The notes under the pieces: model-generated
Told to the model about the DNA's origin: nothing
Databases searched by the model: none
Seen by the model: only the letters and a program-made list of their open reading frames with translations
Assembly (NCBI GenBank): GCA_008330645.1
Contig: VLTN01000009.1
Location: 669,584-733,583, forward strand
Source: Cafeteria roenbergensis
Lineage: Eukaryota; Sar; Bigyra; Bicosoecida; Cafeteriaceae
DNA: 64,000 nt
Reading direction: 5' to 3'
Part shown: positions 20,392 through 64,000 of the stretch, piece after piece
Layout: every line of letters starts with the position of its first letter
Position numbering within the stretch: position 1 is the stretch's first letter
Made by a program: the position numbers and the translations under genes

Positions 20392-20687
20392 GGCGCTCGG
20401 CCACCGCAGCAGTGTGTCGCCGGCCACGGCCCACGCGGCAAACAGAGCGTGAACTGCAGTCGCTCTCGAGAAAAACCGACGCCCGCGCCTGCCCCGCGGC
20501 GCGCTCCCCGCTCCCCGCCGCCGCCTCTTGCCCGGAGCGGCCACGCCAGGGCGCGTGCGGCTCCTTCCGGAGCGGCCGCGGCCGCGGCGGGGGCGGCGGC
20601 GGCGGCGGCGGCGCGCATGCGTGAGGCAGGGAGCGAGGACAGGTTGTGGCTGGGCTGCCACTGAGCGACGCTTTTTGTTCCAATCAG
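20392..20687. other. GC-extreme leader of the histidine kinase gene
   Basis: This stretch contains a run of GGC/GGG triplets (about 20577-20613) that would encode poly-Arg if the kinase started at 20748. Its composition suits an untranslated leader or CpG-type promoter better than protein. Confidence 0.45.
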
Positions 20688-43120: not shown

Positions 43121-46100
43121 ATGGGTGCACCCGACCACAGAAAAGCGTCACGGGGGCTTGCCGCGGGCGCTGCAGCCGTGTTGCTGGCCGTCACGGCGCC
43201 GGTGGCCCGTGGCGTGACGTGTCCTGCGATTGGAAGCTCTGGCGCGCACGTGATTGCAAGCTCTTGCACGTTCGCCAGCGGCAGCTACGCCGCAAGCAGC
43301 CTTCGCATCGGACCAGGCGTGACAGTGGACGCAACGCTCCCATTTAGCCTCGACGTCGCAAATGACCTGGACGTGCTCGGCCAGCTCAGAGGCCTTGCCT
43401 CGGACAACGACGACAAGGCCATGCAAATTCGAGCTGGCCGTCTCATCCGCGTCACAGGAAGCATCACGGTTGACGGTGCTGGGTACTCACGCGGAAATCG
43501 GCACTCAAGCTGCTTCTGGGGGGGGTACGGCAACGGCGGCCTTCATGCCGGAGGGCCCGAGGGCAAGACTTGCGGCGACTACGAATGGCCAACCTTGGCC
43601 GGCAGTTCGGGTTCCAACGGCGAGGAGTATTGGCTTGGAGGCAACGGAGGCGGCTCGCTCTCCCTTGCCTGTGCCGAAGCAAAGACAAGCTCCATCGAGC
43701 TCATTGGCTGGGTGGGTGCCAGTGGCTTGCGCGGGCAGGGAAGCAGTTACCGAGGCCGCGCAGGAGGCGGAGGAGCAGGAGGCTCCATTCTGATTGTCAC
43801 GTCCAATCTTGCCGGCAGCGGGTCTCTCTGGGCAGTGGGCGGTGATGGCAATGATGGTGAAAGCAGCTGGGGCAACAGCAATGGGGGGTCCGGGGGCCGC
43901 ATTGCTATTCACGCTGCACAGTCGAGCTTCACAGGCTACGCTCGGACCTTCGCAGGCAGCACCTTCGGTACGCCCTGGGGTCCTCAAAATGCGGGCGGAA
44001 CCACGTTTTGGTGTCTGGGAAAGGTTGCTGCGGAGGAGACCGACCCGGAGACCAACCCAAGGCTCTGCGAGTTTCGCAAGCTCGAAACTGCAAACACTGA
44101 TCGGGCCGAGACGACGTACCATGTCCATCTGCCACTGGTGGGCGGACGCCGCTTCATTGTACTTGATGAACTTTTCCTTGGGACGGGCACGCAGCTGTCC
44201 ATTGCCGCGCCTGCAACGTTTCACCCAGTTGCATCACCAAACGATCGGACCTCGGTCTCGATTGGGGAGATCACGGGGCCTGGAGCGCTTTCATCACAGC
44301 TCTGGGTGTATGCTGGCACGACATGGACAATTTCGGGCCGGTCTCCGACCGAGCAAGTCGTCGGGCGGCACTCGGTTTCTGGGTGGGTGGAGACTACGTC
44401 CAACAGCCCAACATGGGCCCGTGAAGTCACGGCCCGAGAGACGGTGCTCAGTCCCCTCTTTTTGAAGGTCGGCCACTTGCACACCGCCCCAAACAGCCAA
44501 CTCGTGCTCCCTCCCGCATTCGTTTTGAGTTCAGGGACCGTCCTTTCGCTGAACTCAGTTCTTGTGGGGGTGAAGTCCATAACCGTCGACTCTGAATCCA
44601 CATTGCGCCTCGGAGGCCAAGGCAGAACGTGGGTGAACGACACAGGCAAGGAGCAGACCGACTGGAGTCGCTGGGCCTGCGAGCAAGGCGCGGCTGCATG
44701 CTCCTCCAGAGGAGTCGTGCCGACCGACGGAAGCAGCAACGCCAAATTCGCATTCTCTTCGCTTCGGCTGCTGGGAAATGCTCGGCTCGAAATCGAAGGG
44801 CAGGTGCTCGTTGTTGCCGCAGCTGAGCTAATCCTAGGTCATTCGTCGCAGCTGGAGGTGCAGGGACCTCAGACGGGCCAGCTCCGCATCGAGGCCCGCG
44901 ACGCGCTCAGGCTCGGCCCGGGCGCCGCCATCCGCGCCGACGGCGCCGGCTACGGGCCCGACGCGCGCCATCCCAGCTGCTCCGACGGCGGGGCGCGCAA
45001 CGGCGGCCTGCACGGCGGCGGGCCGGCGGGGCAGTCCTGCGGCGACTACGAGTGGCCCGTGCTCGCGGGTCCGGGCGGGTCGTCGGGCCAGCACGCCGGC
45101 GGGGCGGGCGGCGGATCGGTGACGCTGGTGTGCAACGCCACGGAGTCGAGCGTGATGGAGCTGAACGGCACCGTGTCCGTGGACGGCCAGAGCGGTCGGG
45201 CCCACACCTCCTCGTATTCACCGGCGAGCGGCGGCGGCGCGGGCGGGTCGCTGCTGGTGGTGGCCTCGCGGCTGTCGGGGACCGGCACGCTGTCCGCGGA
45301 CGGCGGCGCCGGGGCGGACGGCCACGGATCCGACGACAGCAACGGCGGGTCCGGCGGCCGCATCGCCATCCACGCCTACGAGACCTCGCGCGGCGTCTCC
45401 TTCACGGGCGCGGTGCGGGCTCGCGCCGGGGCGGCGTACGGGTCGTGGGGTGCACAGGCGGCGGCGGGCACCGTGTACTGGTGCGACGGTCGGGCGAGCG
45501 AGTCCGAGGCGGCGCTGGAGGGCGAGGCGAACGTGCACCGCTGCGGGGTGCGCCGTCTGGAGCTGGACAACTCGGATCGGGTCCGGACGCCGTACTTCAC
45601 GCAGCTGCAGCTCCCAGCATGGCGCCGCCTCGTGGAGGTGGACGAGCTGCACCTGGGCTCCGGCGTACAGCTCGCGGTGCCCGGGCCGCCGGTGTTCGAC
45701 CCCGTCGCGATGCCGCTGAACCGCACGGCGGTGGTGCTGGGCAACGTGACGGGTGTGGGGTCGGGCACGTCTGCCTTGCACGCCCTGGCGGGGACGACAG
45801 TGTCGCTGGCGGGCCTGCGTCCGGGGGTGCGACGAGTCAGCGAGAACGGGGAGTGGGTTCGCCAGAGCCAGGAGCAGCGGGTCGTGTCCATGACTGTCGA
45901 AGAGCACGCACGCCTTGTTCTTCCGCAGTCGCTCATCCTGCGATCCGTCGCGTTGACAGTGCGAGGAGACGTGTTCGGGGCCCGGTCCCTGTGGATGCAC
46001 GAAGGGTCGAGCTCTGAGTTGGGAAGCTCGGGAGCGATGCGCATTCTGGCTCGGGCGACGCGCGACGCCGACCCCAGCAGTTCGCTGGAAACGGACGACG

Positions 46101-49100
46101 CCGCTTTGGGGCCCCCATTCAAGGCTCCGATCGTGACATGGCAGACGTGGGCGTGCGCGGCCGAGCTGCCAGCGTGCCCCCAACCTGGCCAACGCCTCGC
46201 CGGCTCGTCTGCCGATGACCGTGGCCGGTTCGCCTTCGGGTCGCTGCGAGTGCTGGATGACGCCACGCTCACAGTCGCCGGAGGGGTGCGGTCTGTGGTT
46301 GCGTCCGAGCTGGACGTGCTGCACAGCGCCGCAGTGACAGTGCAGGGACCGGAGACGGGCCAGCTCCGCATCGAGGCCCGCGACGCGCTCAGGCTCGGCC
46401 CGGGCGCCGCCATCCGCGCCGACGGCGCCGGCTACGGGCCCGACGCGCGCCATCCCAGCTGCTCCGACGGCGGGGCGCGCAACGGCGGCCTGCACGGTGG
46501 CGGGCCGGCGGGGCAGTCCTGCGGCGACTATGAGTGGCCCGTGCTCGCGGGTCCGGGCGGGTCGTCGGGCCAGCACGCCGGCGGGGCGGGCGGCGGATCG
46601 GTGACGCTGGTGTGCAACGCCACGGAGTCGAGCGTGATGGAGCTGAACGGCACCGTGTCCGTGGACGGCCAGAGCGGTCGGGCCCACACCTCCTCGTATT
46701 CACCGGCGAGCGGCGGCGGCGCGGGCGGGTCGCTGCTGGTGGTGGCCTCGCGGCTGTCGGGGACCGGCACGCTGTCCGCGGACGGCGGCGCCGGGGCAGA
46801 CGGCCACGGATCCGACGACAGCAACGGCGGGTCCGGCGGCCGCATCGCCATCCACGCCTACGAGACCTCGCGCGGCGTCTCCTTCACGGGCGCGGTGCGG
46901 GCTCGCGCCGGGGCGGCGTACGGGTCGTGGGGTGCACAGGCGGCGGCGGGCACCGTGTACTGGTGCGACGGTCGGGCGAGCGAGTCCGAGGCGGCGCTGG
47001 AGGGCGAGGCGAACGTGCACCGCTGCGGGGTGCGCCGTCTGGAGCTGGACAACTCGGATCGGGTCCGGACGCCGTACTTCACGCAGCTGCAGCTCCCAGC
47101 ATGGCGCCGCCTCGTGGAGGTGGACGAGCTGCACCTGGGCTCCGGCGTACAGCTCGCGGTGCCCGGGCCGCCGGTGTTCGACCCCGTCGCGATGCCGCTG
47201 AACCGCACGGCGGTGGTGCTGGGCAACGTGACGGGTGTGGGGTCGGGCACGTCTGCCTTGCACGCCCTGGCGGGGACGACAGTGTCGCTGGCGGGCCTGC
47301 GTCCGGGGGTGCGACGAGTCAGCGAGAACGGGGAGTGGGTTCGCCAGAGCCAGGAGCAGCGGGTCGTGTCCATGACTGTCGAAGAGCACGCACGCCTTGT
47401 TCTTCCGCAGTCGCTCATCCTGCGATCCGTCGCGTTGACAGTGCGAGGAGACGTGTTCGGGGCCCGGTCCCTGTGGATGCACGAAGGGTCGAGCTCTGAG
47501 TTGGGAAGCTCGGGAGCGATGCGCATTCTGGCTCGGGCGACGCGCGACGCCGACCCCAGCAGTTCGCTGGAAACGGACGACGCCGCTTTGGGGCCCCCAT
47601 TCAAGGCTCCGATCGTGACATGGCAGACGTGGGCGTGCGCGGCCGAGCTGCCAGCGTGCCCCCAACCTGGCCAACGCCTCGCCGGCTCGTCTGCCGATGA
47701 CCGTGGCCGGTTCGCCTTCGGGTCGCTGCGAGTGCTGGATGACGCCACGCTCACAGTCGCCGGAGGGGTGCGGTCTGTGGTTGCGTCCGAGCTGGACGTG
47801 CTGCACAGCGCCGCAGTGACAGTGCAGGGACCGGAGACGGGCCAGCTCCGCATCGAGGCCCGCGACGCGCTCAGGCTCGGCCCGGGCGCCGCCATCCGCG
47901 CCGACGGCGCCGGCTACGGGCCCGACGCGCGCCACCCCAGCTGCTCCGACGGCGGGGCGCGCAACGGCGGCCTGCACGGCGGCGGGCCGGCGGGGCAGTC
48001 CTGCGGCGACTATGAGTGGCCCGTGCTCGCGGGTCCGGGCGGGTCGTCGGGCCAGCACGCCGGCGGGGCGGGCGGCGGATCGGTGACGCTGGTGTGCAAC
48101 GCCACGGAGTCGAGCGTGATGGAGCTGAATGGCACCGTGTCCGTGGACGGCCAGAGCGGTCGGGCCTACACCTCCGGCTCGGGGTCGGCGAGCGGCGGCG
48201 GCGCGGGCGGGTCGCTGCTGGTGGTGGCCTCGCGGCTGTCGGGGACCGGCACGCTGTCCGCGGACGGCGGCGCCGGGGCGGACGGCCACGGATCCGACGA
48301 CAGCAACGGCGGGTCCGGCGGCCGCATCGCCATCCACGCCCACGAGACCTCGCGCGGCGTCTCCTTCACGGGCGCGGTGCGGGCTCGCGCCGGGGCGGCG
48401 TACGGGTCGTGGGGTGCACAGGCGGCGGCGGGCACCGTGTACTGGTGCGACGGTCGGGCGAGCGAGTCCGAGGCGGCGCTGGAGGGCGAGGCGAACGTGC
48501 ACCGCTGCGGGGTGCGCCGTCTGGAGCTGGACAACTCGGATCGGGTCCGGACGCCGTACTTCACGCAGCTGCAGCTCCCAGCATGGCGCCGCCTCGTGGA
48601 GGTGGACGAGCTGCACCTGGGCTCCGGCGTACAGCTCGCGGTGCCCGGGCCGCCGGTGTTCGACCCCGTCGCGATGCCGCTGAACCGCACGGCGGTGGTG
48701 CTGGGCAACGTGACGGGTGTGGGGTCGGGCACGTCTGCCTTGCACGCCCTGGCGGGGACGACAGTGTCGCTGGCGGGCCTGCGTCCGGGGGTGCGACGAG
48801 TCAGCGAGAACGGGGAGTGGGTTCGCCAGAGCCAGGAGCAGCGGGTCGTGTCCATGACTGTCGAAGAGCACGCACGCCTTGTTCTTCCGCAGTCGCTCAT
48901 CCTGCGATCCGTCGCGTTGACAGTGCGAGGAGACGTGTTCGGGGCCCGGTCCCTGTGGATGCACGAAGGGTCGAGCTCTGAGTTGGGAAGCTCGGGAGCG
49001 ATGCGCATTCTGGCTCGGGCGACGCGCGACGCCGACCCCAGCAGTTCGCTGGAAACGGACGACGCCGCTTTGGGGCCCCCATTCAAGGCTCCGATCGTGA

Positions 49101-52100
49101 CATGGCAGACGTGGGCGTGCGCGGCCGAGCTGCCAGCGTGCCCCCAACCTGGCCAACGCCTCGCCGGCTCGTCTGCCGATGACCGTGGCCGGTTCGCCTT
49201 CGGGTCGCTGCGAGTGCTGGATGACGCCACGCTCACAGTCGCCGGAGGGGTGCGGTCTGTGGTTGCGTCCGAGCTGGACGTGCTGCACAGCGCCGCAGTG
49301 ACAGTGCAGGGACCGGAGACGGGCCAGCTCCGCATCGAGGCCCGCGACGCGCTCAGGCTCGGCCCGGGCGCCGCCATCCGCGCCGACGGCGCCGGCTACG
49401 GGCCCGACGCGCGCCACCCCAGCTGCTCCGACGGCGGGGCGCGCAACGGCGGCCTGCACGGCGGCGGGCCGGCGGGGCAGTCCTGCGGCGACTACGAGTG
49501 GCCCGTGCTCGCGGGTCCGGGCGGGTCGTCGGGCCAGCACGCCGGCGGGGCGGGCGGCGGATCGGTGACGCTGGTGTGCAACGCCACGGAGTCGAGCGTG
49601 ATGGAGCTGAACGGCACCGTGTCCGTGGACGGCCAGAGCGGTCGGGCCCACACCTCCGGCTCGGGGTCGGCGAGCGGCGGCGGCGCGGGCGGGTCGCTGC
49701 TGGTGGTGGCCTCGCGGCTGTCGGGGACCGGCACGCTGTCCGCCGACGGCGGCGCCGGGGCGGACGGCTACGGATCCGACGACAGCAACGGCGGGTCCGG
49801 CGGCCGCATCGCCATCCACGCCTACGAGACCTCGCGCGGCGTCTCCTTCACGGGCGCGGTGCGGGCTCGCGCCGGGGCGGCGTACGGGTCGTGGGGTGCA
49901 CAGGCGGCGGCGGGCACCGTGTACTGGTGCGACGGTCGGGCGAGCGAGTCCGAGGCGGCGCTGGAGGGCGAGGCGAACGTGCACCGCTGCGGGGTGCGCC
50001 GTCTGGAGCTGGACAACTCGGATCGGGTCCGGACGCCGTACTTCACGCAGCTGCAGCTCCCAGCATGGCGCCGCCTCGTGGAGGTGGACGAGCTGCACCT
50101 GGGCTCCGGCGTACAGCTCGCGGTGCCCGGGCCGCCGGTGTTCGACCCCGTCGCGATGCCGCTGAACCGCACGGCGGTGGTGCTGGGCAACGTGACGGGT
50201 GTGGGGTCGGGCACGTCTGCCTTGCACGCCCTGGCGGGGACGACAGTGTCGCTGGCGGGCCTGCGTCCGGGGGTGCGACGAGTCAGCGAGAACGGGGAGT
50301 GGGTTCGCCAGAGCCAGGAGCAGCGGGTCGTGTCCATGACTGTCGAAGAGCACGCACGCCTTGTTCTTCCGCAGTCGCTCATCCTGCGATCCGTCGCGTT
50401 GACAGTGCGAGGAGACGTGTTCGGGGCCCGGTCCCTGTGGATGCACGAAGGGTCGAGCTCTGAGTTGGGAAGCTCGGGAGCGATGCGCATTCTGGCTCGG
50501 GCGACGCGCGACGCCGACCCCAGCAGTTCGCTGGAAACGGACGACGCCGCTTTGGGGCCCCCATTCAAGGCTCCGATCGTGACATGGCAGACGTGGGCGT
50601 GCGCGGCCGAGCTGCCAGCGTGCCCCCAACCTGGCCAACGCCTCGCCGGCTCGTCTGCCGATGACCGTGGCCGGTTCGCCTTCGGGTCGCTGCGAGTGCT
50701 GGATGACGCCACGCTCACAGTCGCCGGAGGGGTGCGGTCTGTGGTTGCGTCCGAGCTGGACGTGCTGCACAGCGCCGCAGTGACAGTGCAGGGACCGGAG
50801 ACGGGCCAGCTCCGCATCGAGGCCCGCGACGCGCTCAGGCTCGGCCCGGGCGCCGCCATCCGCGCCGACGGCGCCGGCTACGGGCCCGACGCGCGCCATC
50901 CCAGCTGCTCCGACGGCGGGGCGCGCAACGGCGGCCTGCACGGCGGCGGGCCGGCGGGGCAGTCCTGCGGCGACTACGAGTGGCCCGTGCTCGCGGGTCC
51001 GGGCGGGTCGTCGGGCCAGCACGCCGGCGGGGCGGGCGGCGGATCGGTGACGCTGGTGTGCAACGCCACGGAGTCGAGCGTGATGGAGCTGAACGGCACC
51101 GTGTCCGTGGACGGCCAGAGCGGTCGGGCCTACACCTCCGGCTCGGGGTCGGCGAGCGGCGGCGGCGCGGGCGGGTCGCTGCTGGTGGTGGCCTCGCGGC
51201 TGTCGGGGACCGGCACGCTGTCCGCGGACGGCGGCGCCGGGGCGGACGGCTACGGTACCTTGGACAGCAACGGCGGGTCCGGCGGCCGCATCGCCATCCA
51301 CGCCTACGAGACCTCGCGCGGCGTCTCCTTCACGGGCGCGGTGCGGGCTCGCGCCGGGGCGGCGTACGGGTCGTGGGGTGCACAGGCGGCGGCGGGCACC
51401 GTGTACTGGTGCGACGGTCGGGCGAGCGAGTCCGAGGCGGCGCTGGAGGGCGAGGCGAACGTGCACCGCTGCGGGGTGCGCCGCCTTGATGTTTTCGCGC
51501 ATGGTGTTTCTTCGGCTTTACACGTGACACAGGTTCTGTTTCCGCTGCCATGGAGGCCGCTTCACATTGACGTTCTCGAGTTTGGCACCGGGTCGCGGCT
51601 TTCATTTTTTCCACCGTCCTCGTCGAATGTTTCGGCGGACCATTGCTCGCCAAGTCTGACGGTCGGACGCTTGCTTTCTGACTCGGCTTCGCGGTCTTCC
51701 TTTGAGGTCCAGCCACACACCCGTGTCGGCATTGGACATGCCCAGTGCCTGAGGCACAGCTCCGGCAACACATCGCAGTTCTGTGTGGCGGTCGAAGTCA
51801 GGCGAGCTGGCCAGCTTATTCTTCCGAGCGAGTTCGAGCTGCTGCCCTCGGCGTCAATGATTGCTGAAGGCACTCTTTCGGGAGCGCAGCATGTGAGGCT
51901 TCATGCCTCGTCTTCGCTGTGGTTGGGAAGCACCGGAGGAACGGCAGACAATCGCGCTGATACAGCAGACAGTACGTACAAGTTTGAGTCTCTTCGCCTC
52001 ATCGGGAACGCCGCTCTCACTCTCGGGGCCGGCGTGCGCGCGATCGCCGCCGCCGAGCTCGACGTCTCCGGATCCGCTATCGTGGCGGTGCAGGGACCTC

Positions 52101-55100
52101 AGACGGGCCAGCTCCGCATCGAGGCCCGTGACGCGCTCAGGCTCGGCCCGGGCGCCGCCATCCGCGCCGACGGCGCCGGCTACGGGCCCGACGCGCGCCA
52201 TCCCAGCTGCTCCGACGGCGGGGCGCGCAACGGCGGCCTGCACGGCGGCGGGCCGGCGGGGCAGTCCTGCGGCGACTACGAGTGGCCCGTGCTCGCGGGT
52301 CCGGGCGGGTCGTCGGGCCAGCACGCCGGCGGGGCGGGCGGCGGATCGGTGACGCTGGTGTGCAACGCCACGGAGTCGAGCGTGATGGAGCTGAACGGCA
52401 CCGTGTCCGTGGACGGCCAGAGCGGTCGGGCCCACACCTCCGGCTCGGGGTCGGCGAGCGGCGGCGGCGCGGGCGGGTCGCTGCTGGTGGTGGCCTCGCG
52501 GCTGTCGGGGACCGGCACGCTGTCCGCGGACGGCGGCGCCGGGGCGGACGGCTACGGTACCTTGGACAGCAACGGCGGGTCCGGCGGCCGCATCGCCATC
52601 CACGCCTACGAGACCTCGCGCGGCGTCTCCTTCACGGGCGCGGTGCGGGCTCGCGCCGGGGCGGCGTACGGGTCGTGGGGTGCACAGGCGGCGGCGGGCA
52701 CCGTGTACTGGTGCGACGGTCGGGCGAGCGAGTCCGAGGCGGCGCTGGAGGGCGAGGCGAACGTGCACCGCTGCGGGGTGCGCCGTCTGGAGCTGGACAA
52801 CGGCGACCTGCCGGAGACGCCGTTCTACCCGCAGCTGTCGGTGGCCGAAGGCCGCCGCCGCTTCGTGATCGACGAGCTGCACCTCGGGTCCGCCACGAAC
52901 CTCTCAGTGCAGGCGCCATCGGACTTCGACCCCGTCTCTGCGCCTGACTCCCGATCATCCGTGGTGATTGGCGATGTTTCCGGCTTGGCCGTGTCCCGCT
53001 CAGTGCTGTCAGTTGCGGATGGCACCACCTGGATGTGGGCAGGCATTGCTCCAACATCTCACCGTGTCGGCTTGGTGGCCGTTTCGGTGGACGCAAGGTC
53101 TGCAGGCTATAACCAGTCCCTTTCAGTTGAGACTGTGTCGAGAACAATCCATCTTGACTCAGGGTGCATCTCGGTGGGAGATGTGAGGGTGGAGCAGTGG
53201 GGCCATCTTGTACTGTCTCGACATGTCCTCGTTTCTCAAGGTGCATCGCTCACTGTTCAGGGAGCGTTGTCAGGGGCAGAAACCTTGACAATCGACGCCG
53301 GAGCGCGCGTCACACTGCAGAGGACCGGGACGACGCGTGCACAGAGCTCAAACGCCAGCTGGGAAGCCTGGGCTTGCAGCAGAGTGTCGGCACGTTGCGA
53401 ACAAGCTGATGACTTGCGGCCAACAACGGCAGCGGTGTATGCGGGTCGATATGCGTTTGCGTCTCTTCGCCTCATCGGGAACGCCGCTCTCACTCTCGGG
53501 GCCGGCGTGCGCGCGATCGCCGCCGCCGAGCTCGATGTCTCCGGATCCGCTATCGTGGCGGTGCAGGGACCTCAGACAGGCCAGCTCCGCATCGAGGCCC
53601 GTGACGCGCTCAGGCTCGGCCCGGGCGCCGCCATCCGCGCCGACGGCGCCGGCTACGGGCCCGACGCGCGCCATCCCAGCTGCTCCGACGGCGGGGCGCG
53701 CAACGGCGGCCTGCACGGTGGCGGGCCGGCGGGGCAGTCCTGCGGCGACTACGAGTGGCCCGTGCTCGCGGGTCCGGGCGGGTCGTCGGGCCAGCACGCC
53801 GGCGGGGCGGGCGGCGGATCGGTGACGCTGGTGTGCAACGCCACGGAGTCGAGCGTGATGGAGCTGAACGGCACCGTGTCCGTGGACGGCCAGAGCGGTC
53901 GGGCCTACACCTCCGGCTCGGGGTCGGCGAGCGGCGGCGGCGCGGGCGGGTCGCTGCTGGTGGTGGCCTCGCGGCTGTCGGGGACCGGCACGCTGTCCGC
54001 CGACGGCGGCGCCGGGGCGGACGGCTACGGTACCTTGGACAGCAACGGCGGGTCCGGCGGCCGCATCGCCATCCACGCCCACGAGACCTCGCGCGGCGTC
54101 TCCTTCACGGGCGCGGTGCGGGCTCGCGCCGGGGCGGCGTACGGGTCGTGGGGTGCACAGGCGGCGGCGGGCACCGTGTACTGGTGCGACGGTCGGGCGA
54201 GCGAGTCCGAGGCGGCGCTGGAGGGCGAGGCGAACGTGCACCGCTGCGGGGTGCGCCGTCTGGAGCTGGACAACGGCGACCTGCCGGAGACGCCGTTCTA
54301 CCCGCAGCTGTCGGTGGCCGAAGGCCGCCGCCGCTTCGTGATCGACGAGCTGCACCTCGGGTCCGCCACGAACCTCTCAGTGCAGGCGCCATCGGACTTC
54401 GACCCCGTCTCTGCGCCTGACTCCCGATCATCCGTGGTGATTGGCGATGTTTCCGGCTTGGCCGTGTCCCGCTCAGTGCTGTCAGTTGCGGATGGCACCA
54501 CCTGGATGTGGGCAGGCATTGCTCCAACATCTCACCGTGTCGGCTTGGTGGCCGTTTCGGTGGACGCAAGGTCTGCAGGCTATAACCAGTCCCTTTCAGT
54601 TGAGACTGTGTCGAGAACAATCCATCTTGACTCAGGGTGCATCTCGGTGGGAGATGTGAGGGTGGAGCAGTGGGGCCATCTTGTACTGTCTCGACATGTC
54701 CTCGTTTCTCAAGGTGCATCGCTCACTGTTCAGGGAGCGTTGTCAGGGGCAGAAACCTTGACAATCGACGCCGGAGCGCGCGTCACACTGCAGAGGACCG
54801 GGACGACGCGTGCACAGAGCTCAAACGCCAGCTGGGAAGCCTGGGCTTGCAGCAGAGTGTCGGCACGTTGCGAACAAGCTGATGACTTGCGGCCAACAAC
54901 GGCAGCGGTGAATGCGGGTCGATATGCGTTTGCGTCTCTTCGCCTCATCGGGAACGCCGCTCTCACTCTCGGGGCCGGCGTGCGCGCGATCGCCGCCGCC
55001 GAGCTCGACGTCTCCGGATCCGCTATCGTGGCGGTGCAGGGACCTCAGACAGGCCAGCTCCGCATCGAGGCCCGTGACGCGCTCAGGCTCAGCCCGGGCG

Positions 55101-58100
55101 CCGCCATCCGCGCCGACGGCGCCGGCTACGGGCCCGACGCGCGCCATCCCAGCTGCTCCGACGGCGGGGCGCGCAACGGCGGCCTGCACGGTGGCGGGCC
55201 GGCGGGGCAGACCTGCGGCGACTACGAGTGGCCCGTGCTGGCCGGCGCGGGCGGGTCGGGCGGGGCGTCGGGCGGGTCCGGCGGGGGGTCGTTGCTGATC
55301 CAGTGCAACTTCACCGCGTCCAGCTCCGTCGACCTCGCCGGCCTCGTGACCGTGGACGGCCACGCCGGGTCCGGGTCGAGCGGCGCGGGCGGCGCGGGCG
55401 GGTCGCTGGTGGTGGTGGCCGGGCGGCTGGCCGTGACGGGCACCCTGTCCGCCAACGGAGGCGCCGCGTCGGCGAGCAGCAACGCCAACGGCGGGTCCGG
55501 CGGCCGGATCGCCCTGCACGCGTACCAGCCCGCCTGGGCCGCCGCCACGGGCTCCGTGCGCGCGCGGGCCGGCGCGGCGCAGGGATCGTGGTCCGCCCAG
55601 GCCGCGGCCGGCACGACGCTGTGGTGCGACGGCCGGGCGGCGCCGGGGTCGGAGTCGGAGTCGAACCCGCACGGGTGCGGCACGCGTCGTCTGGAGATCG
55701 ACAACGGCGACCTCCCCGCCACGCCCTACTTCGCACAGCTCAACGCCGTACGGCCCCGGGCGCGGTTCGTGATCGACCACCTGTACCTGGGGTCGCCGAC
55801 CAGCTTCTCCGTCCGCGCCCCCTCGGCCTTCCACCCCGAGACCATGCCCGACGACCGGTCCAGCATCGTGCTGGGCAACGTCTCCGGACCCGGCGTGTCC
55901 GCCTCGAGCGTCACCGTGGCGGCCGGCACCGACTGGACCGTGGGCCCGGCGCAGTCCTCGGCCGCGGACCCCTTCGCGCTGGGCCTGCGGTCGCTGACCG
56001 TGGCGGAGCACGGACGGCTGATGCTGGCGTGGGCGGTGTGGCTGCGCGCCACCACGGTGACCGTGCGCGGCGAGCTGTCGGGCGTGCGGCACCTCACGCT
56101 GGATGCGGGCGCCGCCGTGTCGCTGGGCGGGTCGGGCGGCGTGTGGATCGACAACGCCACCGGCACCGGCGCGGACGGCGAGTGGGCCGCGTGGGCGTGC
56201 GCCGCCGGCGTGGCGTCGTGCTCGTCGGCGGGCGGGGCGAGGCGGCTCCAGGGCCGGTACGGCTTCGAGTCGCTGCGCCTCCTCGGCGACGCGTCCCTCA
56301 CGCTCGACGCGGGCGTGCGGTCGGTGGGCGCGGCGCAGGTGGACGTGCTGGCCACGTCGCGAGTGACGGCGCTGGGTCCGCGTTCGACGCAGCTGCGGCT
56401 GGTCGCGCGCGACGGACTGCGCCTGGCGCCCGGCGCCGCCATCCGCGCCGACGGCATCGGGTTCGCCGGCGGGGAGCGGGACGCGAGCTGCTCCGCGGGC
56501 GACGACGCCGGCGAGGGCGGGATGCACGGCGGCGGGCCAGCGGGACAGACCTGCGGCGACTACGAGTGGCCCGTGCTGGCCGGCGCGGGCGGGTCGGGCG
56601 GGGCGTCGGGCGGGTCCGGCGGGGGGTCGTTGCTGATCCAGTGCAACTTCACCGCGTCCAGCTCCGTCGACCTCGCCGGCCTCGTGACCGTGGACGGCCA
56701 CGCCGGGTCCGGGTCGAGCGGCGCGGGCGGCGCGGGCGGGTCGCTGGTGGTGGTGGCCGGGCGGCTGGCCGTGACGGGCACCCTGTCCGCCAACGGAGGC
56801 GCCGCGTCGGCGAGCAGCAACGCCAACGGCGGGTCCGGCGGCCGGATCGCCCTGCACGCGTACCAGCCCGCCTGGGCCGCCGCCACGGGCTCCGTGCGCA
56901 CGCGGGCCGGCGCGGCGCAGGGATCGTGGTCCGCCCAGGCCGCGGCCGGCACGACGCTGTGGTGCGACGGCCGGGCGGCGCCGGGGTCGGAGTCGGAGTC
57001 GAACCCGCACGGGTGCGGCACGCGTCGTCTGGAGATCGACAACGGCGACCTCCCCGCCACGCCCTACTTCGCACAGCTCAACGCCGTACGGCCCCGGGCG
57101 CGGTTCGTGATCGACCACCTGTACCTGGGGTCGCCGACCAGCTTCTCCGTCCGCGCCCCCTCGGCCTTCCACCCCGAGACCATGCCCGACGACCGGTCCA
57201 GCATCGTGCTGGGCAACGTCTCCGGACCCGGCGTGTCCGCCTCGAGCGTCACCGTGGCGGCCGGCACCGACTGGACCGTGGGCCCGGCGCAGTCCTCGGC
57301 CGCGGACCCCTTCGCGCTGGGCCTGCGGTCGCTGACCGTGGCGGAGCACGGACGGCTGATGCTGGCGTGGGCGGTGTGGCTGCGCGCCACCACGGTGACC
57401 GTGCGCGGCGAGCTGTCGGGCGTGCGGCACCTCACGCTGGATGCGGGCGCCGCCGTGTCGCTGGGCGGGTCGGGCGGCGTGTGGATCGACAACGCCACCG
57501 GCACCGGCGCGGACGGCGAGTGGGCCGCGTGGGCGTGCGCCGCCGGCGTGGCGTCGTGCTCGTCGGCGGGCGGGGCGAGGCGGCTCCAGGGCCGGTACGG
57601 CTTCGAGTCGCTGCGCCTCCTCGGCGACGCGTCCCTCACGCTCGACGCGGGCGTGCGGTCGGTGGGCGCGGCGCAGGTGGACGTGCTGGCCACGTCGCGA
57701 GTGACGGCGCTGGGTCCGCGTTCGACGCAGCTGCGGCTGGTCGCGCGCGACGGACTGCGCCTGGCGCCCGGCGCCGCCATCCGCGCCGACGGCATCGGGT
57801 TCGCCGGCGGGGAGCGGGACGCGAGCTGCTTCGCGGGCGACGACGCCGGCGAGGGCGGGATGCACGGCGGCGGGCCAGCGGGACAGACCTGCGGCGACTA
57901 CGAGTGGCCCGTGCTGGCCGGCGCGGGCGGGTCGGGCGGGGCGTCGGGCGGGTCCGGCGGGGGGTCGTTGCTGATCCAGTGCAACTTCACCGCGTCCAGC
58001 TCCGTCGACCTCGCCGGCCTCGTGACCGTGGACGGCCACGCCGGGTCCGGGTCGAGCGGCGCGGGCGGCGCGGGCGGGTCGCTGGTGGTGGTGGCCGGGC

Positions 58101-61015
58101 GGCTGGCCGTGACGGGCACCCTGTCCGCCAACGGAGGCGCCGCGTCGGCGAGCAGCAACGCCAACGGCGGGTCCGGCGGCCGGATCGCCCTGCACGCGTA
58201 CCAGCCCGCCTGGGCCGCCGCCACGGGCTCCGTGCGCGCGCGGGCCGGCGCGGCGCAGGGATCGTGGTCCGCCCAGGCCGCGGCCGGCACGACGCTGTGG
58301 TGCGACGGCCGGGCGGCGCCGGGGTCGGAGTCGGAGTCGGAGTCGAACCCGCACGGGTGCGGCACGCGTCGTCTGGAGATCGACAACGGCGACCTCCCCG
58401 CCACGCCCTACTTCGCACAGCTCAACGCCGTACGGCCCCGGGCGCGGTTCGTGATCGACCACCTGTACCTGGGGTCGCCGACCAGCTTCTCCGTCCGCGC
58501 CCCCTCGGCCTTCCACCCCGAGACCATGCCCGACGACCGGTCCAGCATCGTGCTGGGCAACGTCTCCGGACCCGGGGTATCGCGTTCGAGGCTTGCTGTG
58601 GAGGCTGGCACGACCTGGGTGTTCGCTGGTCAGCCGCTTGCGGAGGCCCCGCTTGGCACGGCCAGATGGACCTCGGATGTCGCCCTTGCATCATCGGGCG
58701 CTCAAACCGCTGTCAGCTGCCTCGAACAGCCATTCCTCAGCCTAGCGCTGACAGTGAACTTCAACCTTGTCATCGTTGCAGAGCATTCGCAGCTGCTGCT
58801 GCCTCCGAAAGTTATCTTGTCCGGCGGGGCGACCATGGACGTGCGCGGCGAGCTGTCGGGCGTGCGGCACCTCACGCTGGATGCGGGCGCCGCCGTGTCG
58901 CTGGGCGGGTCGGGCGGCGTGTGGATCGACAACGTCGCTGGCACCGGCGCGGACGGCGAGTGGGCCGCGTGGGCGTGCGCCGCCGGCGTGGCGTCGTGCT
59001 CGTCGGCGGGCGGGGCGAGGCGGCTCCAGGGCCGGTACGGCTTCGAGTCGCTGCGCCTCCTCGGCGACGCGTCCCTCACGCTCGACGCGGGCGTGCGGTC
59101 GGTGGGCGCGGCGCAGGTGGACGTGCTGGCCACGTCGCGAGTGACGGCGCTGGGTCCGCGTTCGACGCAGCTGCGGCTGGTCGCGCGCGACGGACTGCGC
59201 CTGGCGCCCGGCGCCGCCATCCGCGCCGACGGCATCGGGTTCGCCGGCGGGGAGCGGGACGCGAGCTGCTCCGCGGGCGACGACGCCGGCGAGGGCGGGA
59301 TGCACGGCGGCGGGCCGGCGGGACAGACCTGCGGCGACTACGAGTGGCCCGTGCTGGCCGGCGCGGGCGGGTCGGGCGGGGCGTCGGGCGGGTCCGGCGG
59401 GGGGTCGTTGCTGATCCAGTGCAACTTCACCGCGTCCAGCTCCGTCGACCTCGCCGGCCTCGTGACCGTGGACGGCGCTCCCGGTCGTGCAGCCGCGGTT
59501 GCGGGTGAAATCTCCGGCGGAGGCGGAGCTGCTGGCTCGCTGCTCGTGGTCGCGTCACGCCTGTCGGGGACTGGTGTCATTTCTGCTTCAGGTGGGGATG
59601 CGGTGCCTGCTGGCTCCGGCTGGGCCAGCAACGGCGGTTCCGGTGGGCGGATCTCGTTGTTGGGTGGCACCTCGACGTTTGAAGGAACCTTTGTGTCTGT
59701 AGCCGGGTCTGGGCCACCGGATCAACTTGCGGCAGCTGGAACGGCCTTCACCTGCACGGGGCCGTCGTGCGCATCCCCAAGCGCTGTAGCAGCCGTCCCT
59801 CCCACCCGCACTGTCCTGGTGGATGCTCGAGGCAAGCTGTCTTCAGGCGTCACAGAGATCGGCGGGCGGGGACTGAGCATTGAGCTGCTCACGCGCCTCG
59901 AGATTTTTGGTCACGCCACCATCAGCATCAAGCCTGGGGGGCACTCCCCCGATTCGGAATCATCTCTGCTCCAAGTTGAGCAGGTTTCCGGGGACGGCAG
60001 CGGCAGCCTTCGTCTGCAGGCTGGCACTTCGGTCGTCGTGACCGGGGGCGCCGCGTCGTGGAGCTCCTCCAACACGGAGACGCATGCGATTGTGCGGGAC
60101 TCTGCAGAGGTCGCTACGTATTCCGTGCAGCGCGTGGTGACAACCCAAGCCGAGCTCAAGGGGTTGCGCATTGCTGTGGACGTCGGCGCCCAGGTCGTCC
60201 TGCCTCCGAGCATCGCCGTTTGCAACGCCACCGTGGAGGCGGCCGGGAGCGTGATTGGGCCGCGAACCATCAAGTACTGCGACGCTGACGGGGACGACGT
60301 GGGTCCACTGCCCGTGACGGGGTGTACCAACAGCTCCGCTGAGAACTTCAACCCTGCCGCCACGGTGTCCAACAGCTCGCTGTGCGCGTTCGACCGCATC
60401 CCAGGCTGCACAAACCAGCTCGCACTGAACTTCAGCCCCTTGGCAGAAGTGAATGACGGCTCGTGTACATTCAGTGACTCGTTCGCTAGCGGCTGCGCGT
60501 ACGACGCGGCGCTGAACTTCCTGCCCGGCTCGCTCGACGACGGCTCCTGCAAGTTCCCAGACTACATCGGACTGGAGCAGCGGTTCAACCGCTCAACTCA
60601 TCCTGCGCAGACAGCGGACAACGCTGCTGCTGCAAAATCAGATGCTGCTCCAGCTGCTGGAGGGGGCAGGGAGCGGCAATGCGAGCTGCGGGTCCTGTGG
60701 CCACTGCTGACCTGCTCGCTCAGTTCAAGGCGCTTGACGACGCCCTGCAGGCGATGCGCGCTGACCGGGACGAGGCGCTGGATGCCTCCATGCTGCTCGA
60801 CTTCCAACTCAGAGACGCCAAGGCGCGACCTTGCCCTGCAATTCAGCTGGCTGCCACCCGCGCCACCCGCATCGTGGGCTTGGAGTCGAGGACGGCCGAG
60901 CTGGAGACGGCTTTGGACGACACTCGCTCTCAAGTCAGCTCACTGGCACAAAATCTTGTTGAAGTGGAAACGAAGCGCAATCGCTCAGAGCGGAACAGCG
61001 AGCCGCCCGACCTGA
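43121..61015 (+). CDS. Giant secreted/surface protein of twelve Gly-rich modules
   Basis: A single frame of about 5964 codons from the ATG at 43121, chosen because it gives a signal peptide (RGLAAGAAAVLLAVTAPVAR) just before TCPAIGSSGAHV; the frame is open from 42944. Twelve copies of a module follow. Each begins with a right-handed-helix-like stretch (LRIEARDALRLGPGAAIRAD), then GGLHGGGPAGQ-S/T-CGDYEWPVLAG, a Gly-rich run, GGAGGSLLVVASRL, NGGSGGRIAIHAY, YWCDGRA and CGVRRLELDN, and ends with a more variable strand-rich half. Copy 1 (from about 43430) is divergent; copies 2-12 form the tandem array. After the array come three repeats of the GCT-x-A-x-NF...DGSC type at 60320-60555. The frame stops being protein-like near 60590, where a coiled coil continues in other frames, so the true C-terminus probably lies downstream. 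Secretion and an adhesive or matrix role are inferred from the signal peptide, repeats and Cys content; no family was identified with certainty. Confidence 0.8.
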   Translation: MGAPDHRKASRGLAAGAAAVLLAVTAPVARGVTCPAIGSSGAHVIASSCTFASGSYAASSLRIGPGVTVDATLPFSLDVANDLDVLGQLRGLASDNDDKAMQIRAGRLIRVTGSITVDGAGYSRGNRHSSCFWGGYGNGGLHAGGPEGKTCGDYEWPTLAGSSGSNGEEYWLGGNGGGSLSLACAEAKTSSIELIGWVGASGLRGQGSSYRGRAGGGGAGGSILIVTSNLAGSGSLWAVGGDGNDGESSWGNSNGGSGGRIAIHAAQSSFTGYARTFAGSTFGTPWGPQNAGGTTFWCLGKVAAEETDPETNPRLCEFRKLETANTDRAETTYHVHLPLVGGRRFIVLDELFLGTGTQLSIAAPATFHPVASPNDRTSVSIGEITGPGALSSQLWVYAGTTWTISGRSPTEQVVGRHSVSGWVETTSNSPTWAREVTARETVLSPLFLKVGHLHTAPNSQLVLPPAFVLSSGTVLSLNSVLVGVKSITVDSESTLRLGGQGRTWVNDTGKEQTDWSRWACEQGAAACSSRGVVPTDGSSNAKFAFSSLRLLGNARLEIEGQVLVVAAAELILGHSSQLEVQGPQTGQLRIEARDALRLGPGAAIRADGAGYGPDARHPSCSDGGARNGGLHGGGPAGQSCGDYEWPVLAGPGGSSGQHAGGAGGGSVTLVCNATESSVMELNGTVSVDGQSGRAHTSSYSPASGGGAGGSLLVVASRLSGTGTLSADGGAGADGHGSDDSNGGSGGRIAIHAYETSRGVSFTGAVRARAGAAYGSWGAQAAAGTVYWCDGRASESEAALEGEANVHRCGVRRLELDNSDRVRTPYFTQLQLPAWRRLVEVDELHLGSGVQLAVPGPPVFDPVAMPLNRTAVVLGNVTGVGSGTSALHALAGTTVSLAGLRPGVRRVSENGEWVRQSQEQRVVSMTVEEHARLVLPQSLILRSVALTVRGDVFGARSLWMHEGSSSELGSSGAMRILARATRDADPSSSLETDDAALGPPFKAPIVTWQTWACAAELPACPQPGQRLAGSSADDRGRFAFGSLRVLDDATLTVAGGVRSVVASELDVLHSAAVTVQGPETGQLRIEARDALRLGPGAAIRADGAGYGPDARHPSCSDGGARNGGLHGGGPAGQSCGDYEWPVLAGPGGSSGQHAGGAGGGSVTLVCNATESSVMELNGTVSVDGQSGRAHTSSYSPASGGGAGGSLLVVASRLSGTGTLSADGGAGADGHGSDDSNGGSGGRIAIHAYETSRGVSFTGAVRARAGAAYGSWGAQAAAGTVYWCDGRASESEAALEGEANVHRCGVRRLELDNSDRVRTPYFTQLQLPAWRRLVEVDELHLGSGVQLAVPGPPVFDPVAMPLNRTAVVLGNVTGVGSGTSALHALAGTTVSLAGLRPGVRRVSENGEWVRQSQEQRVVSMTVEEHARLVLPQSLILRSVALTVRGDVFGARSLWMHEGSSSELGSSGAMRILARATRDADPSSSLETDDAALGPPFKAPIVTWQTWACAAELPACPQPGQRLAGSSADDRGRFAFGSLRVLDDATLTVAGGVRSVVASELDVLHSAAVTVQGPETGQLRIEARDALRLGPGAAIRADGAGYGPDARHPSCSDGGARNGGLHGGGPAGQSCGDYEWPVLAGPGGSSGQHAGGAGGGSVTLVCNATESSVMELNGTVSVDGQSGRAYTSGSGSASGGGAGGSLLVVASRLSGTGTLSADGGAGADGHGSDDSNGGSGGRIAIHAHETSRGVSFTGAVRARAGAAYGSWGAQAAAGTVYWCDGRASESEAALEGEANVHRCGVRRLELDNSDRVRTPYFTQLQLPAWRRLVEVDELHLGSGVQLAVPGPPVFDPVAMPLNRTAVVLGNVTGVGSGTSALHALAGTTVSLAGLRPGVRRVSENGEWVRQSQEQRVVSMTVEEHARLVLPQSLILRSVALTVRGDVFGARSLWMHEGSSSELGSSGAMRILARATRDADPSSSLETDDAALGPPFKAPIVTWQTWACAAELPACPQPGQRLAGSSADDRGRFAFGSLRVLDDATLTVAGGVRSVVASELDVLHSAAVTVQGPETGQLRIEARDALRLGPGAAIRADGAGYGPDARHPSCSDGGARNGGLHGGGPAGQSCGDYEWPVLAGPGGSSGQHAGGAGGGSVTLVCNATESSVMELNGTVSVDGQSGRAHTSGSGSASGGGAGGSLLVVASRLSGTGTLSADGGAGADGYGSDDSNGGSGGRIAIHAYETSRGVSFTGAVRARAGAAYGSWGAQAAAGTVYWCDGRASESEAALEGEANVHRCGVRRLELDNSDRVRTPYFTQLQLPAWRRLVEVDELHLGSGVQLAVPGPPVFDPVAMPLNRTAVVLGNVTGVGSGTSALHALAGTTVSLAGLRPGVRRVSENGEWVRQSQEQRVVSMTVEEHARLVLPQSLILRSVALTVRGDVFGARSLWMHEGSSSELGSSGAMRILARATRDADPSSSLETDDAALGPPFKAPIVTWQTWACAAELPACPQPGQRLAGSSADDRGRFAFGSLRVLDDATLTVAGGVRSVVASELDVLHSAAVTVQGPETGQLRIEARDALRLGPGAAIRADGAGYGPDARHPSCSDGGARNGGLHGGGPAGQSCGDYEWPVLAGPGGSSGQHAGGAGGGSVTLVCNATESSVMELNGTVSVDGQSGRAYTSGSGSASGGGAGGSLLVVASRLSGTGTLSADGGAGADGYGTLDSNGGSGGRIAIHAYETSRGVSFTGAVRARAGAAYGSWGAQAAAGTVYWCDGRASESEAALEGEANVHRCGVRRLDVFAHGVSSALHVTQVLFPLPWRPLHIDVLEFGTGSRLSFFPPSSSNVSADHCSPSLTVGRLLSDSASRSSFEVQPHTRVGIGHAQCLRHSSGNTSQFCVAVEVRRAGQLILPSEFELLPSASMIAEGTLSGAQHVRLHASSSLWLGSTGGTADNRADTADSTYKFESLRLIGNAALTLGAGVRAIAAAELDVSGSAIVAVQGPQTGQLRIEARDALRLGPGAAIRADGAGYGPDARHPSCSDGGARNGGLHGGGPAGQSCGDYEWPVLAGPGGSSGQHAGGAGGGSVTLVCNATESSVMELNGTVSVDGQSGRAHTSGSGSASGGGAGGSLLVVASRLSGTGTLSADGGAGADGYGTLDSNGGSGGRIAIHAYETSRGVSFTGAVRARAGAAYGSWGAQAAAGTVYWCDGRASESEAALEGEANVHRCGVRRLELDNGDLPETPFYPQLSVAEGRRRFVIDELHLGSATNLSVQAPSDFDPVSAPDSRSSVVIGDVSGLAVSRSVLSVADGTTWMWAGIAPTSHRVGLVAVSVDARSAGYNQSLSVETVSRTIHLDSGCISVGDVRVEQWGHLVLSRHVLVSQGASLTVQGALSGAETLTIDAGARVTLQRTGTTRAQSSNASWEAWACSRVSARCEQADDLRPTTAAVYAGRYAFASLRLIGNAALTLGAGVRAIAAAELDVSGSAIVAVQGPQTGQLRIEARDALRLGPGAAIRADGAGYGPDARHPSCSDGGARNGGLHGGGPAGQSCGDYEWPVLAGPGGSSGQHAGGAGGGSVTLVCNATESSVMELNGTVSVDGQSGRAYTSGSGSASGGGAGGSLLVVASRLSGTGTLSADGGAGADGYGTLDSNGGSGGRIAIHAHETSRGVSFTGAVRARAGAAYGSWGAQAAAGTVYWCDGRASESEAALEGEANVHRCGVRRLELDNGDLPETPFYPQLSVAEGRRRFVIDELHLGSATNLSVQAPSDFDPVSAPDSRSSVVIGDVSGLAVSRSVLSVADGTTWMWAGIAPTSHRVGLVAVSVDARSAGYNQSLSVETVSRTIHLDSGCISVGDVRVEQWGHLVLSRHVLVSQGASLTVQGALSGAETLTIDAGARVTLQRTGTTRAQSSNASWEAWACSRVSARCEQADDLRPTTAAVNAGRYAFASLRLIGNAALTLGAGVRAIAAAELDVSGSAIVAVQGPQTGQLRIEARDALRLSPGAAIRADGAGYGPDARHPSCSDGGARNGGLHGGGPAGQTCGDYEWPVLAGAGGSGGASGGSGGGSLLIQCNFTASSSVDLAGLVTVDGHAGSGSSGAGGAGGSLVVVAGRLAVTGTLSANGGAASASSNANGGSGGRIALHAYQPAWAAATGSVRARAGAAQGSWSAQAAAGTTLWCDGRAAPGSESESNPHGCGTRRLEIDNGDLPATPYFAQLNAVRPRARFVIDHLYLGSPTSFSVRAPSAFHPETMPDDRSSIVLGNVSGPGVSASSVTVAAGTDWTVGPAQSSAADPFALGLRSLTVAEHGRLMLAWAVWLRATTVTVRGELSGVRHLTLDAGAAVSLGGSGGVWIDNATGTGADGEWAAWACAAGVASCSSAGGARRLQGRYGFESLRLLGDASLTLDAGVRSVGAAQVDVLATSRVTALGPRSTQLRLVARDGLRLAPGAAIRADGIGFAGGERDASCSAGDDAGEGGMHGGGPAGQTCGDYEWPVLAGAGGSGGASGGSGGGSLLIQCNFTASSSVDLAGLVTVDGHAGSGSSGAGGAGGSLVVVAGRLAVTGTLSANGGAASASSNANGGSGGRIALHAYQPAWAAATGSVRTRAGAAQGSWSAQAAAGTTLWCDGRAAPGSESESNPHGCGTRRLEIDNGDLPATPYFAQLNAVRPRARFVIDHLYLGSPTSFSVRAPSAFHPETMPDDRSSIVLGNVSGPGVSASSVTVAAGTDWTVGPAQSSAADPFALGLRSLTVAEHGRLMLAWAVWLRATTVTVRGELSGVRHLTLDAGAAVSLGGSGGVWIDNATGTGADGEWAAWACAAGVASCSSAGGARRLQGRYGFESLRLLGDASLTLDAGVRSVGAAQVDVLATSRVTALGPRSTQLRLVARDGLRLAPGAAIRADGIGFAGGERDASCFAGDDAGEGGMHGGGPAGQTCGDYEWPVLAGAGGSGGASGGSGGGSLLIQCNFTASSSVDLAGLVTVDGHAGSGSSGAGGAGGSLVVVAGRLAVTGTLSANGGAASASSNANGGSGGRIALHAYQPAWAAATGSVRARAGAAQGSWSAQAAAGTTLWCDGRAAPGSESESESNPHGCGTRRLEIDNGDLPATPYFAQLNAVRPRARFVIDHLYLGSPTSFSVRAPSAFHPETMPDDRSSIVLGNVSGPGVSRSRLAVEAGTTWVFAGQPLAEAPLGTARWTSDVALASSGAQTAVSCLEQPFLSLALTVNFNLVIVAEHSQLLLPPKVILSGGATMDVRGELSGVRHLTLDAGAAVSLGGSGGVWIDNVAGTGADGEWAAWACAAGVASCSSAGGARRLQGRYGFESLRLLGDASLTLDAGVRSVGAAQVDVLATSRVTALGPRSTQLRLVARDGLRLAPGAAIRADGIGFAGGERDASCSAGDDAGEGGMHGGGPAGQTCGDYEWPVLAGAGGSGGASGGSGGGSLLIQCNFTASSSVDLAGLVTVDGAPGRAAAVAGEISGGGGAAGSLLVVASRLSGTGVISASGGDAVPAGSGWASNGGSGGRISLLGGTSTFEGTFVSVAGSGPPDQLAAAGTAFTCTGPSCASPSAVAAVPPTRTVLVDARGKLSSGVTEIGGRGLSIELLTRLEIFGHATISIKPGGHSPDSESSLLQVEQVSGDGSGSLRLQAGTSVVVTGGAASWSSSNTETHAIVRDSAEVATYSVQRVVTTQAELKGLRIAVDVGAQVVLPPSIAVCNATVEAAGSVIGPRTIKYCDADGDDVGPLPVTGCTNSSAENFNPAATVSNSSLCAFDRIPGCTNQLALNFSPLAEVNDGSCTFSDSFASGCAYDAALNFLPGSLDDGSCKFPDYIGLEQRFNRSTHPAQTADNAAAAKSDAAPAAGGGRERQCELRVLWPLLTCSLSSRRLTTPCRRCALTGTRRWMPPCCSTSNSETPRRDLALQFSWLPPAPPASWAWSRGRPSWRRLWTTLALKSAHWHKILLKWKRSAIAQSGTASRPT
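44861..51480 (+). repeat. Subfamily A units (five copies, 1482 bp)
   Basis: A1-A4 are complete and A5 keeps only its first half, up to about 51480, where it switches abruptly to unrelated, less GC-rich sequence. Marker variants show unit relationships: SSYSP in A1-A2 against GSGS in A3-A5; HGSDD in A1-A3, YGSDD in A4, YGTLD in A5; and His or Tyr before TSG. The variable half of A units contains a conserved central stretch (HARLVLPQSLILRSVALTVR) and a WQTWACAAELPACPQPGQ segment with two Cys. Confidence 0.95.
52091..55036 (+). repeat. Subfamily B units (two copies, 1473 bp)
   Basis: B1 (52091-53563) and B2 (53564-55036) have a first half almost identical in DNA to subfamily A. Their second half, from about 52790, is distinct (LPETPFYPQLSVAEGRRRF and VSRTIHLDSGCISVGDVRVE) and clearly less GC-rich. 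B1 and B2 are nearly identical to each other even there; a visible difference is TAT at about 53439 against AAT at about 54912 (Tyr/Asn). This indicates a very recent duplication of the whole unit. Confidence 0.93.
55037..59790 (+). repeat. Hybrid unit and subfamily C units
   Basis: The unit at 55037 begins like B (SCSDGGARNGGLHGGG) and switches near 55210 to subfamily C sequence (QTCGDYEWPVLAGAGGSGGA). C1 and C2 then repeat every 1338 bp. C2 carries a private patch at about 58575-58840, replacing the equivalent C1 segment and adding 102 bp. C3 keeps C sequence to about 59475 and then diverges. A Glu-Ser dipeptide run is ESES in the hybrid and C1 units and ESESES in C2, a 6-bp slippage change. 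Confidence 0.9.
60320..60555 (+). repeat. Three GCT-x-x-A-x-NF...DGSC repeats
   Basis: Three consecutive Cys-containing units are read in the frame of the giant protein: GCTNSSAENFNPAATV, GCTNQLALNFSPLAEV and GCAYDAALNFLPGSLD. The second and third end in DGSC; the first ends in SSLC. Similar short repeats occur at the C-terminal side of many secreted bacterial and protist proteins. They follow the last Gly-rich module directly. Confidence 0.85.
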
Positions 61016-63850: not shown

Positions 63851-64000
63851 ATAGCAACTTACTGTTCGGGGCTCCTATCTAACCGCCGCGGCGCCGCAGT
63901 TCAGTTCTTGGTGAGCCGTGTGCGTGAGGTTAGCTGCCAGGCCGGGGCGCCGTTCGTAAGTCGAGCGTGTCGCCGCCTTCGGGAGGCGTCGGTGAGTCGT
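63851..64000. other. Right edge of window, unassigned
   Basis: No continuous coding signal. A GTGAGC...CTGCCAG pair (about 63911-63940) could be chance. The Cys-rich coding sequence may continue beyond the edge. Confidence 0.3.

Follow-up and report, generated by a model that had tools for sequence, protein, structure and literature searches.

The window, a stretch of 64,000 nucleotides at the 3' end of contig C9 of Cafeteria roenbergensis (G+C content, 71.3%), carries an open reading frame with eleven tandem, in-frame units (Table 1). A preliminary description had placed eleven in-frame units of 1.3 to 1.5 kb in about 15 kb of one open reading frame, and the layout agrees with it: the unit-to-unit spacings (494, 494, 494, 494, 434, 491, 491, 445, 446, and 480 codons) are all whole codons, and the frame is open across the whole array. 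Each unit joins a glycine-rich block A of about 715 bp to a block B and bears two to six N-glycosylation motifs. The signal-peptide-like start is directly followed by a conserved, cysteine-containing N terminus that, as judged by eye, is common to a paralogue on C8 (C8, C16, C26, C61, and the like being other contigs of the same genome). Beyond the N-terminal stretch, the hydropathy of the frame rises only once, and weakly, within a B block. An Rfam search of the window gave no match, and when the second half of the frame and the C8 tail were searched against PDB sequences, no E value was lower than 0.39. Pfam searches of both halves of the frame returned only Ig_4 and DUF6255, which were over cut-offs with no single stretch passing, and a sub-threshold ALTTAQ repeat; we take all three to be composition effects. 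For viral contigs, 18 pattern matches were obtained and none was confirmed. Elsewhere in the window lie a 1431-codon frame that opens with a TmcB-type TPR match (10648-14943, plus strand; PF25474, E 1.1e-12) and a 1240-codon frame with a histidine-kinase-like ATPase match (17026-20748, minus strand; PF02518, E 5.6e-6). Adjoining the array, a 3252-codon frame on the minus strand (31551-41309) had no Pfam match at an E value of 0.001 and could be either a gene or a G+C-rich chance frame.

Table 1. Features of the array-bearing gene, in positions of the window
Feature	Position	Strand	Details
Array-bearing open reading frame (18-kb frame)	42944-61015	+	6023 codons; likelier start is codon 60 (43121)
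Signal-peptide-like start	43121-43213	+	From hydropathy; basic stretch, then hydrophobic segment (residues 73-91)
Unit 0	43454-44086	+	Diverged N-terminal A block upstream of the array, the twelfth A block; profile score 177.8
Block A, first copy	44857-45571	+	Glycine-rich, 715 bp; copies about 97-99% alike open u2-u7
Units u1-u4	44876-50803	+	1482 bp each; starts 44876, 46358, 47840, 49322; 795-bp B part the same in all four
Unit u5	50804-52105	+	1302 bp; block A plus unique block B; tail of B like that of u6 and u7
Units u6-u7	52106-55051	+	1473 bp each; starts 52106, 53579; 99.6% identical
Unit u8	55052-56386	+	1335 bp; chimera, first ~206 bp (55034-55239) u1-u7-like, remainder u9-like
Units u9 and u10	56387-59164	+	1338 and 1440 bp; starts 56387, 57725; differ mainly in one B stretch
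Unit u11	59165-60319	+	A start common to u9 and u10, then terminal beta-rich region
Three short cysteine repeats	60320-60550	+	GCxx...NDGSC type; motif positions computed, repeat judged by eye
Error-rich contig end	61217-63997	+	Homologous sequence of paralogues codes for coiled-coil and cysteine-rich parts; frames broken

Nucleotide identity is 98.99 to 99.8% among u1-u4 (six pairs), 99.59% between u6 and u7, 96.2% between u8 and u9, 93.2% between u9 and u10, and 89.5% between u8 and u10; the remaining pairs, of 55 in all, are 48 to 77% identical. At fourfold sites, u1-u4 differ at 0 to 3 of 346 to 350 positions, and u6 differs from u7 at 2 of 343. The claim that units of one subfamily are near-identical, silent sites included, stands for u1-u4 and u6-u7. 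It needs correcting for u11, which matches u10 only in the first ~100 codons, and for the chimeric u8. Mean dS within u1-u7 was 0.030 (21 pairs) and mean dN 0.014, whereas the means to the nearest outside group, C75R-b, were 0.333 (28 pairs) and 0.089 (C75L and C75R are the array stretches at the two ends of contig C75). A tree was built from 61 A blocks of six stretches, 22 partial or frame-broken rows, including the N-terminal block of C9, having been dropped from 83 profile rows. In that tree, one clade holds u1-u7, another the five C61 blocks, and a third the two C8 blocks. The picture is complicated by u8-u10, which fall with 3' units of C116 and not with u1-u7, and by the blocks of C75L, C75R, and C116, which are intermixed; one row (C75R_11669) sits on a very long branch. 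We conclude that the array evolves in concert, silent divergence being lower within it than between related arrays, in keeping with the recent amplification or homogenization first proposed for it.

The units are also mosaic. One type of block A, about 97 to 99% alike between subfamilies, adjoins three B blocks, those of u1-u4, of u5 (unique), and of u6-u7, and these B parts are 23 to 68% alike per 25-codon window, save for a tail shared by u5 and u6. Over about 206 bp from 55034, u8 is u1-u7-like, after which it is 97 to 100% like u9, and u10 resembles u9 outside one B stretch. Within u1-u4, 18 of 687 sites vary in A versus none of 795 in B (Fisher test, 9e-7); with neighboring sites collapsed, there are eight events in A versus none in B (p = 0.002). 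Moreover, u6 and u7 differ at four A sites, each of them variable in u1-u4 as well, and at two B sites. At A sites 337 to 346, u1 and u2 differ from u3-u7 at nine of ten bases, and the u3-u7 version of codons 113 to 116 is base for base the same in eleven blocks of C75 and C116. Exchange between units would explain this most simply, block A being the part that is shared and recombines. Four-gamete conflicts are present among the seven A blocks of u1-u7, but as proof of gene conversion they were downgraded to suggestive, because short-read polishing of near-identical copies could also give single-site conflicts. Candidate loop hot spots, block A positions that were defined on u1-u7 of C9 and checked in five other clusters, had more replacements than expected in two (3 of 10, expected 1.1; 4 of 20, expected 2.3). 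They had none in the other three (0 of 7, 0 of 16, and 0 of 13) and were therefore rejected as a general rule.

Related arrays lie on other contigs. A protein search of the genome (167 contigs; 36,303,456 bases) gave 109 A-block matches on twelve contigs (C8, C9, C16, C26, C61, C64, C66, C75, C80, C89, C109, and C116), those on C64 and C66 being weak. The C64 match (174892-175353; E 3.8e-6) falls within an 11,219-codon open frame, possibly another giant gene. Window positions 59477-61000 recur on C89 (98%), C16 (96%), C116 (96%), and C109 (95 to 97%, in two pieces), and positions 61217-64000 recur on C16, C89, C109, and C116 at 94%. C16, C89, and C109 are candidates for the continuation of C9: units u8-u10 are slightly nearest C16, and the C-terminal part is nearest C89 (C109 being outside the alignment). 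By hand count, the genes contain 2 A blocks on C8, 6 on C61, 12 on C9, and 14 in C75R, where the contig end cuts the array. C116 overlaps C75 over 11.6 kb at 98.5% and is therefore the probable continuation of the gene with which C75 begins; the 21 A blocks of C75L and the 8 of C116 outside the overlap make about 29 if this probable joining holds. Paralogues thus carry 2 to probably about 29 units. Variation in unit number was seen between paralogous genes, and similar variation between individuals is plausible. Some paralogous units are frame-broken. We note that alternate 3'-type units of C116 (9412, 12110, and 14793, within 9412-15441) share one frame change within block A, as if a two-unit block carrying the change had been copied or a sequencing error had recurred.

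Contig ends fall inside the array genes of C16, C75 (both ends), C89, C109, and C116. A telomeric location was suspected from the number of members that face a contig end, but the window, C116, and two stretches of C75 contained none of the four repeat motifs looked for, and that contigs break inside arrays is the simpler reading. The data are probably the published C. roenbergensis BVI assembly or a filtered version of it. Its published description states that it was made with Canu from raw PacBio reads at 45-fold PacBio coverage, that contigs were broken at coverage drops and allelic contigs removed, that polishing used PacBio and Illumina reads, and that G+C content is 70.1% (PMC6972860, including its Table 3). 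Assembly collapse or expansion and short-read polishing might therefore account for part of the unit number and of the sub-percent similarity, and both the procedure and the contig ends within arrays, among them that of C9 with its insertion-rich sequence, fit such an artifact. We nevertheless consider it unlikely, as different subfamilies remain clearly distinct, A variants persist in u1-u4, every spacing is whole codons in an open frame, and true divergence near 0.33 would be expected to survive polishing. Since sub-percent differences between repeats may be shuffled or leveled by polishing, we place weight on identity at the module level and on the tenfold contrast with other arrays, not on single sites. 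That the array is coding, homogenized, and genuine at the module level is nearly certain, whereas the exact unit number and the sub-percent identity are unproven.

How such a protein might be held at the cell is suggested by its paralogues. The frame in the window has no membrane tail, the gene being cut off before the region in question. On C8 a signal-like start precedes the A/B units; after these come three short cysteine repeats, a stretch resembling a coiled coil, and repeats rich in cysteine, and the protein closes with six strong hydrophobic segments followed by a tail (hydropathy computed, the other elements judged by eye). Six strong hydrophobic segments and a match to the TRP family (PF06011) close the proteins of both C8 and C61. 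Against a cut-off of 28.5, the match scored 31.0 on C61, 30.9 on C116, and 27.7 on C8, covering mainly positions 288 to 402 of 426. In the genome search, PF06011 matched at 16 places, 11 of them over the cut-off, and at none in 14 control genomes. Seven of the 16 are on A-block contigs, where C8, C16, C61, C89, C109, and C116 were over the cut-off and C26 was under it. An A block and the TRP match share one frame on C8 (3364 codons), C61 (3301 codons), and C26 (3602 codons, by equal frame length), and the open frame that contains the C89 match (9142-9489) is the homologue of the window's end. PF06011 also matched C1, C4, C7, C20, C27, C48, C49, and C125, which are without a listed A block, most in frames of 868 to 4203 codons; these are perhaps other ectodomains on the same type of tail.

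The original label of surface protein gains support, by inference from hydropathy, from the signal-peptide-like start and from the hydrophobic tail of the paralogues, the tail itself being absent from the window. A giant surface stalk on a TRP-like tail is likely for the family as judged from sequence, and by extension the gene in the window would encode one. A predicted structure of one unit was beta-rich with middling confidence, and the model to which four units of a Candidatus Dojkabacteria protein had been added had lower confidence. Foldseek with the unit model gave no match at an E value of 0.001 or better, an absence that is uninformative, and realignment of the Foldseek candidates with VIA-align put bacterial beta-helix proteins first. 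The unit is likely a beta-solenoid, as far as modeling can tell. Alternatively, the product might be secreted as a structural protein of a matrix, coat, or flagellar hair, with the repeats as mechanical filler. Long beta-solenoid-like repeats with N-glycosylation motifs, in a frame that lacks a membrane segment beyond the N-terminal stretch and the weak B-block peak, would suit that role, but the hydrophobic segments and TRP match that end C8 and C61, and the TRP match of C89, which matches the window at 98% over 59477-61000 and carries the TRP match in the homologous frame, make it improbable in our judgment.

The preliminary description had given the protein about 6000 residues, a length that the analysis does not support. 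The last ~3.4 kb of contig C9 appears to have an uncorrected long-read pattern. Over the 2.8 kb from 61217 to 63997, alignment to C116 shows 79 insertions, 21 deletions, and 37 mismatches, versus no insertions and four deletions at 55.5-58.5 kb and neither at 59.0-60.5 kb; the odd stretch of u10 (58.5-59.0 kb) has 14 insertions and three deletions. Frames are broken from 60.6 to 64.0 kb after 17.6 kb of open frame, and the homologous region of C89 is open from 3715 to the end of the stretch examined. The stop at 61015 is thus probably an artifact of the error-rich contig end and not the end of the protein. The broken frames, together with the frame-broken units of paralogues, could instead mark a decaying pseudogene, but we regard decay as very unlikely given the long open frame that precedes the breaks, their nature as mainly short insertions at a contig end, the open homologous frame of C89, and dN below dS.

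Differences between u1 and one C75R block number 28, 17, and 51 at codon positions 1, 2, and 3 (dN, 0.099; dS, 0.329), and the other two frames of the same strand give dN greater than dS in this one pair compared. These values support the array as coding in the frame of Table 1. Third positions of the frame are strongly G+C biased; long antisense and frame-shifted open reading frames overlap the region, as G+C-rich third positions would lead one to expect. Protein selection plus that codon bias as the sole keeper of similarity among old repeats can be dismissed, as random same-amino-acid codon pairs (A, G, P, T, and V) in the frame agree at only 38.6%, fourfold sites of u1-u4 agree at a level of at least 0.99, and arrays with the same bias have reached a dS of 0.33; silent identity does exceed what selection on the protein alone would give, as had been argued.

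Our preferred reading is that the array is quite probably the repeated ectodomain of a giant cell-surface gene family, a beta-solenoid stalk on a TRP-like tail whose units are exchanged between copies. The reading draws on genomic DNA and on TRP scores near the cut-off. Misaligned units would exchange by unequal crossing-over and gene conversion, a mechanism that we infer from the copies themselves. Such exchange would duplicate, delete, and overwrite units, hold copies near-identical even at silent sites, place block A beside differing B blocks, and let unit number vary from gene to gene. Units in series would form a long beta-solenoid stalk, which in the intact protein, to go by the paralogues, would be borne by a coiled coil and repeats rich in cysteine, with a multi-pass TRP-like tail in the membrane below them. 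Surface location and stalk shape, if correct, would suggest a role in adhesion or contact sensing at the cell surface. We speculate, with little confidence, that the recombining array of these giant receptors (2 to about 29 units per gene) serves a TRP-like channel as a tether of adjustable length. That length would be set by unequal exchange, exposed loops of block A (residues 110 to 116 and 150 to 153) would be swapped by short conversion tracts, and cell lines would come to differ in their reach and in the surface with which they bind prey, particles, or kin.

Recombination among coding repeats is an established route to surface-protein variation, best studied in yeasts and pathogens. In the present case each repeat exceeds 430 residues, the organism probably lives free and grazes on bacteria, and the family varies more than tenfold in unit number and has paralogues that end in a TRP-like membrane domain. 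Should this be confirmed, the length of the ectodomain could be tied directly to adhesion, feeding, or sensing. Assemblies, moreover, break and blur at precisely such genes. Titles and abstract openings yielded no published description of the repeat family, whether in Cafeteria or as giant stramenopile TRP proteins, which leaves its absence in print unproven. Gene expression in stationary phase has been studied in a marine heterotrophic flagellate, which we take to be Cafeteria. Adhesion-type domains were enriched among the genes raised in that phase, and the array gene is not named in the available part of the report (PMC7852580).

Several known systems bear comparison. A Candidatus Dojkabacteria protein (L032; CP129477.1, L032:2862-11777) has at least 2972 residues in regular 362-residue A+B units and carries a laminin-G-like domain. 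Its A and B blocks stand in tandem in the same order as those of C. roenbergensis, with a best-segment identity of 35%, and by sequence we take it as a bacterial counterpart of the A+B repeat. A Microbulbifer protein (L033) also has A and B blocks in that order, with a best-segment identity of 31%. Both bacterial proteins differ in their shorter period, with no long identical copies noted and no eukaryote-type tail seen. TibA and antigen 43, bacterial beta-helix surface proteins, resemble the unit model in fold only, which does not make it a member of their group (sequence identity, 9 to 11%; Foldseek not significant), and no autotransporter parts were seen in the Cafeteria protein. The tail of the paralogues resembles fungal TRP/Flc proteins in its PF06011 match. 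Cryptococcus Flc1 has 766 residues and an ML-like domain (PMC9600462), whereas the Cafeteria ectodomain runs to thousands of residues and no ML domain was among its domain matches.

Finally, a parallel may be drawn with yeast cell-surface proteins of the FLO, ALS, and HPF1 type, whose repeats are short and Ser/Thr-rich and which are GPI anchored. Their genes contain intragenic tandem repeats, the subject of several reports (PMC3537727, PMC6277891, and PMC7263189). The Cafeteria units differ in having 434 to 494 residues and in being glycine-rich and beta-solenoid-like, in a family with a TRP-like tail. What the two share is long in-frame tandem repeats in surface proteins, in which recombination is expected to alter repeat number.
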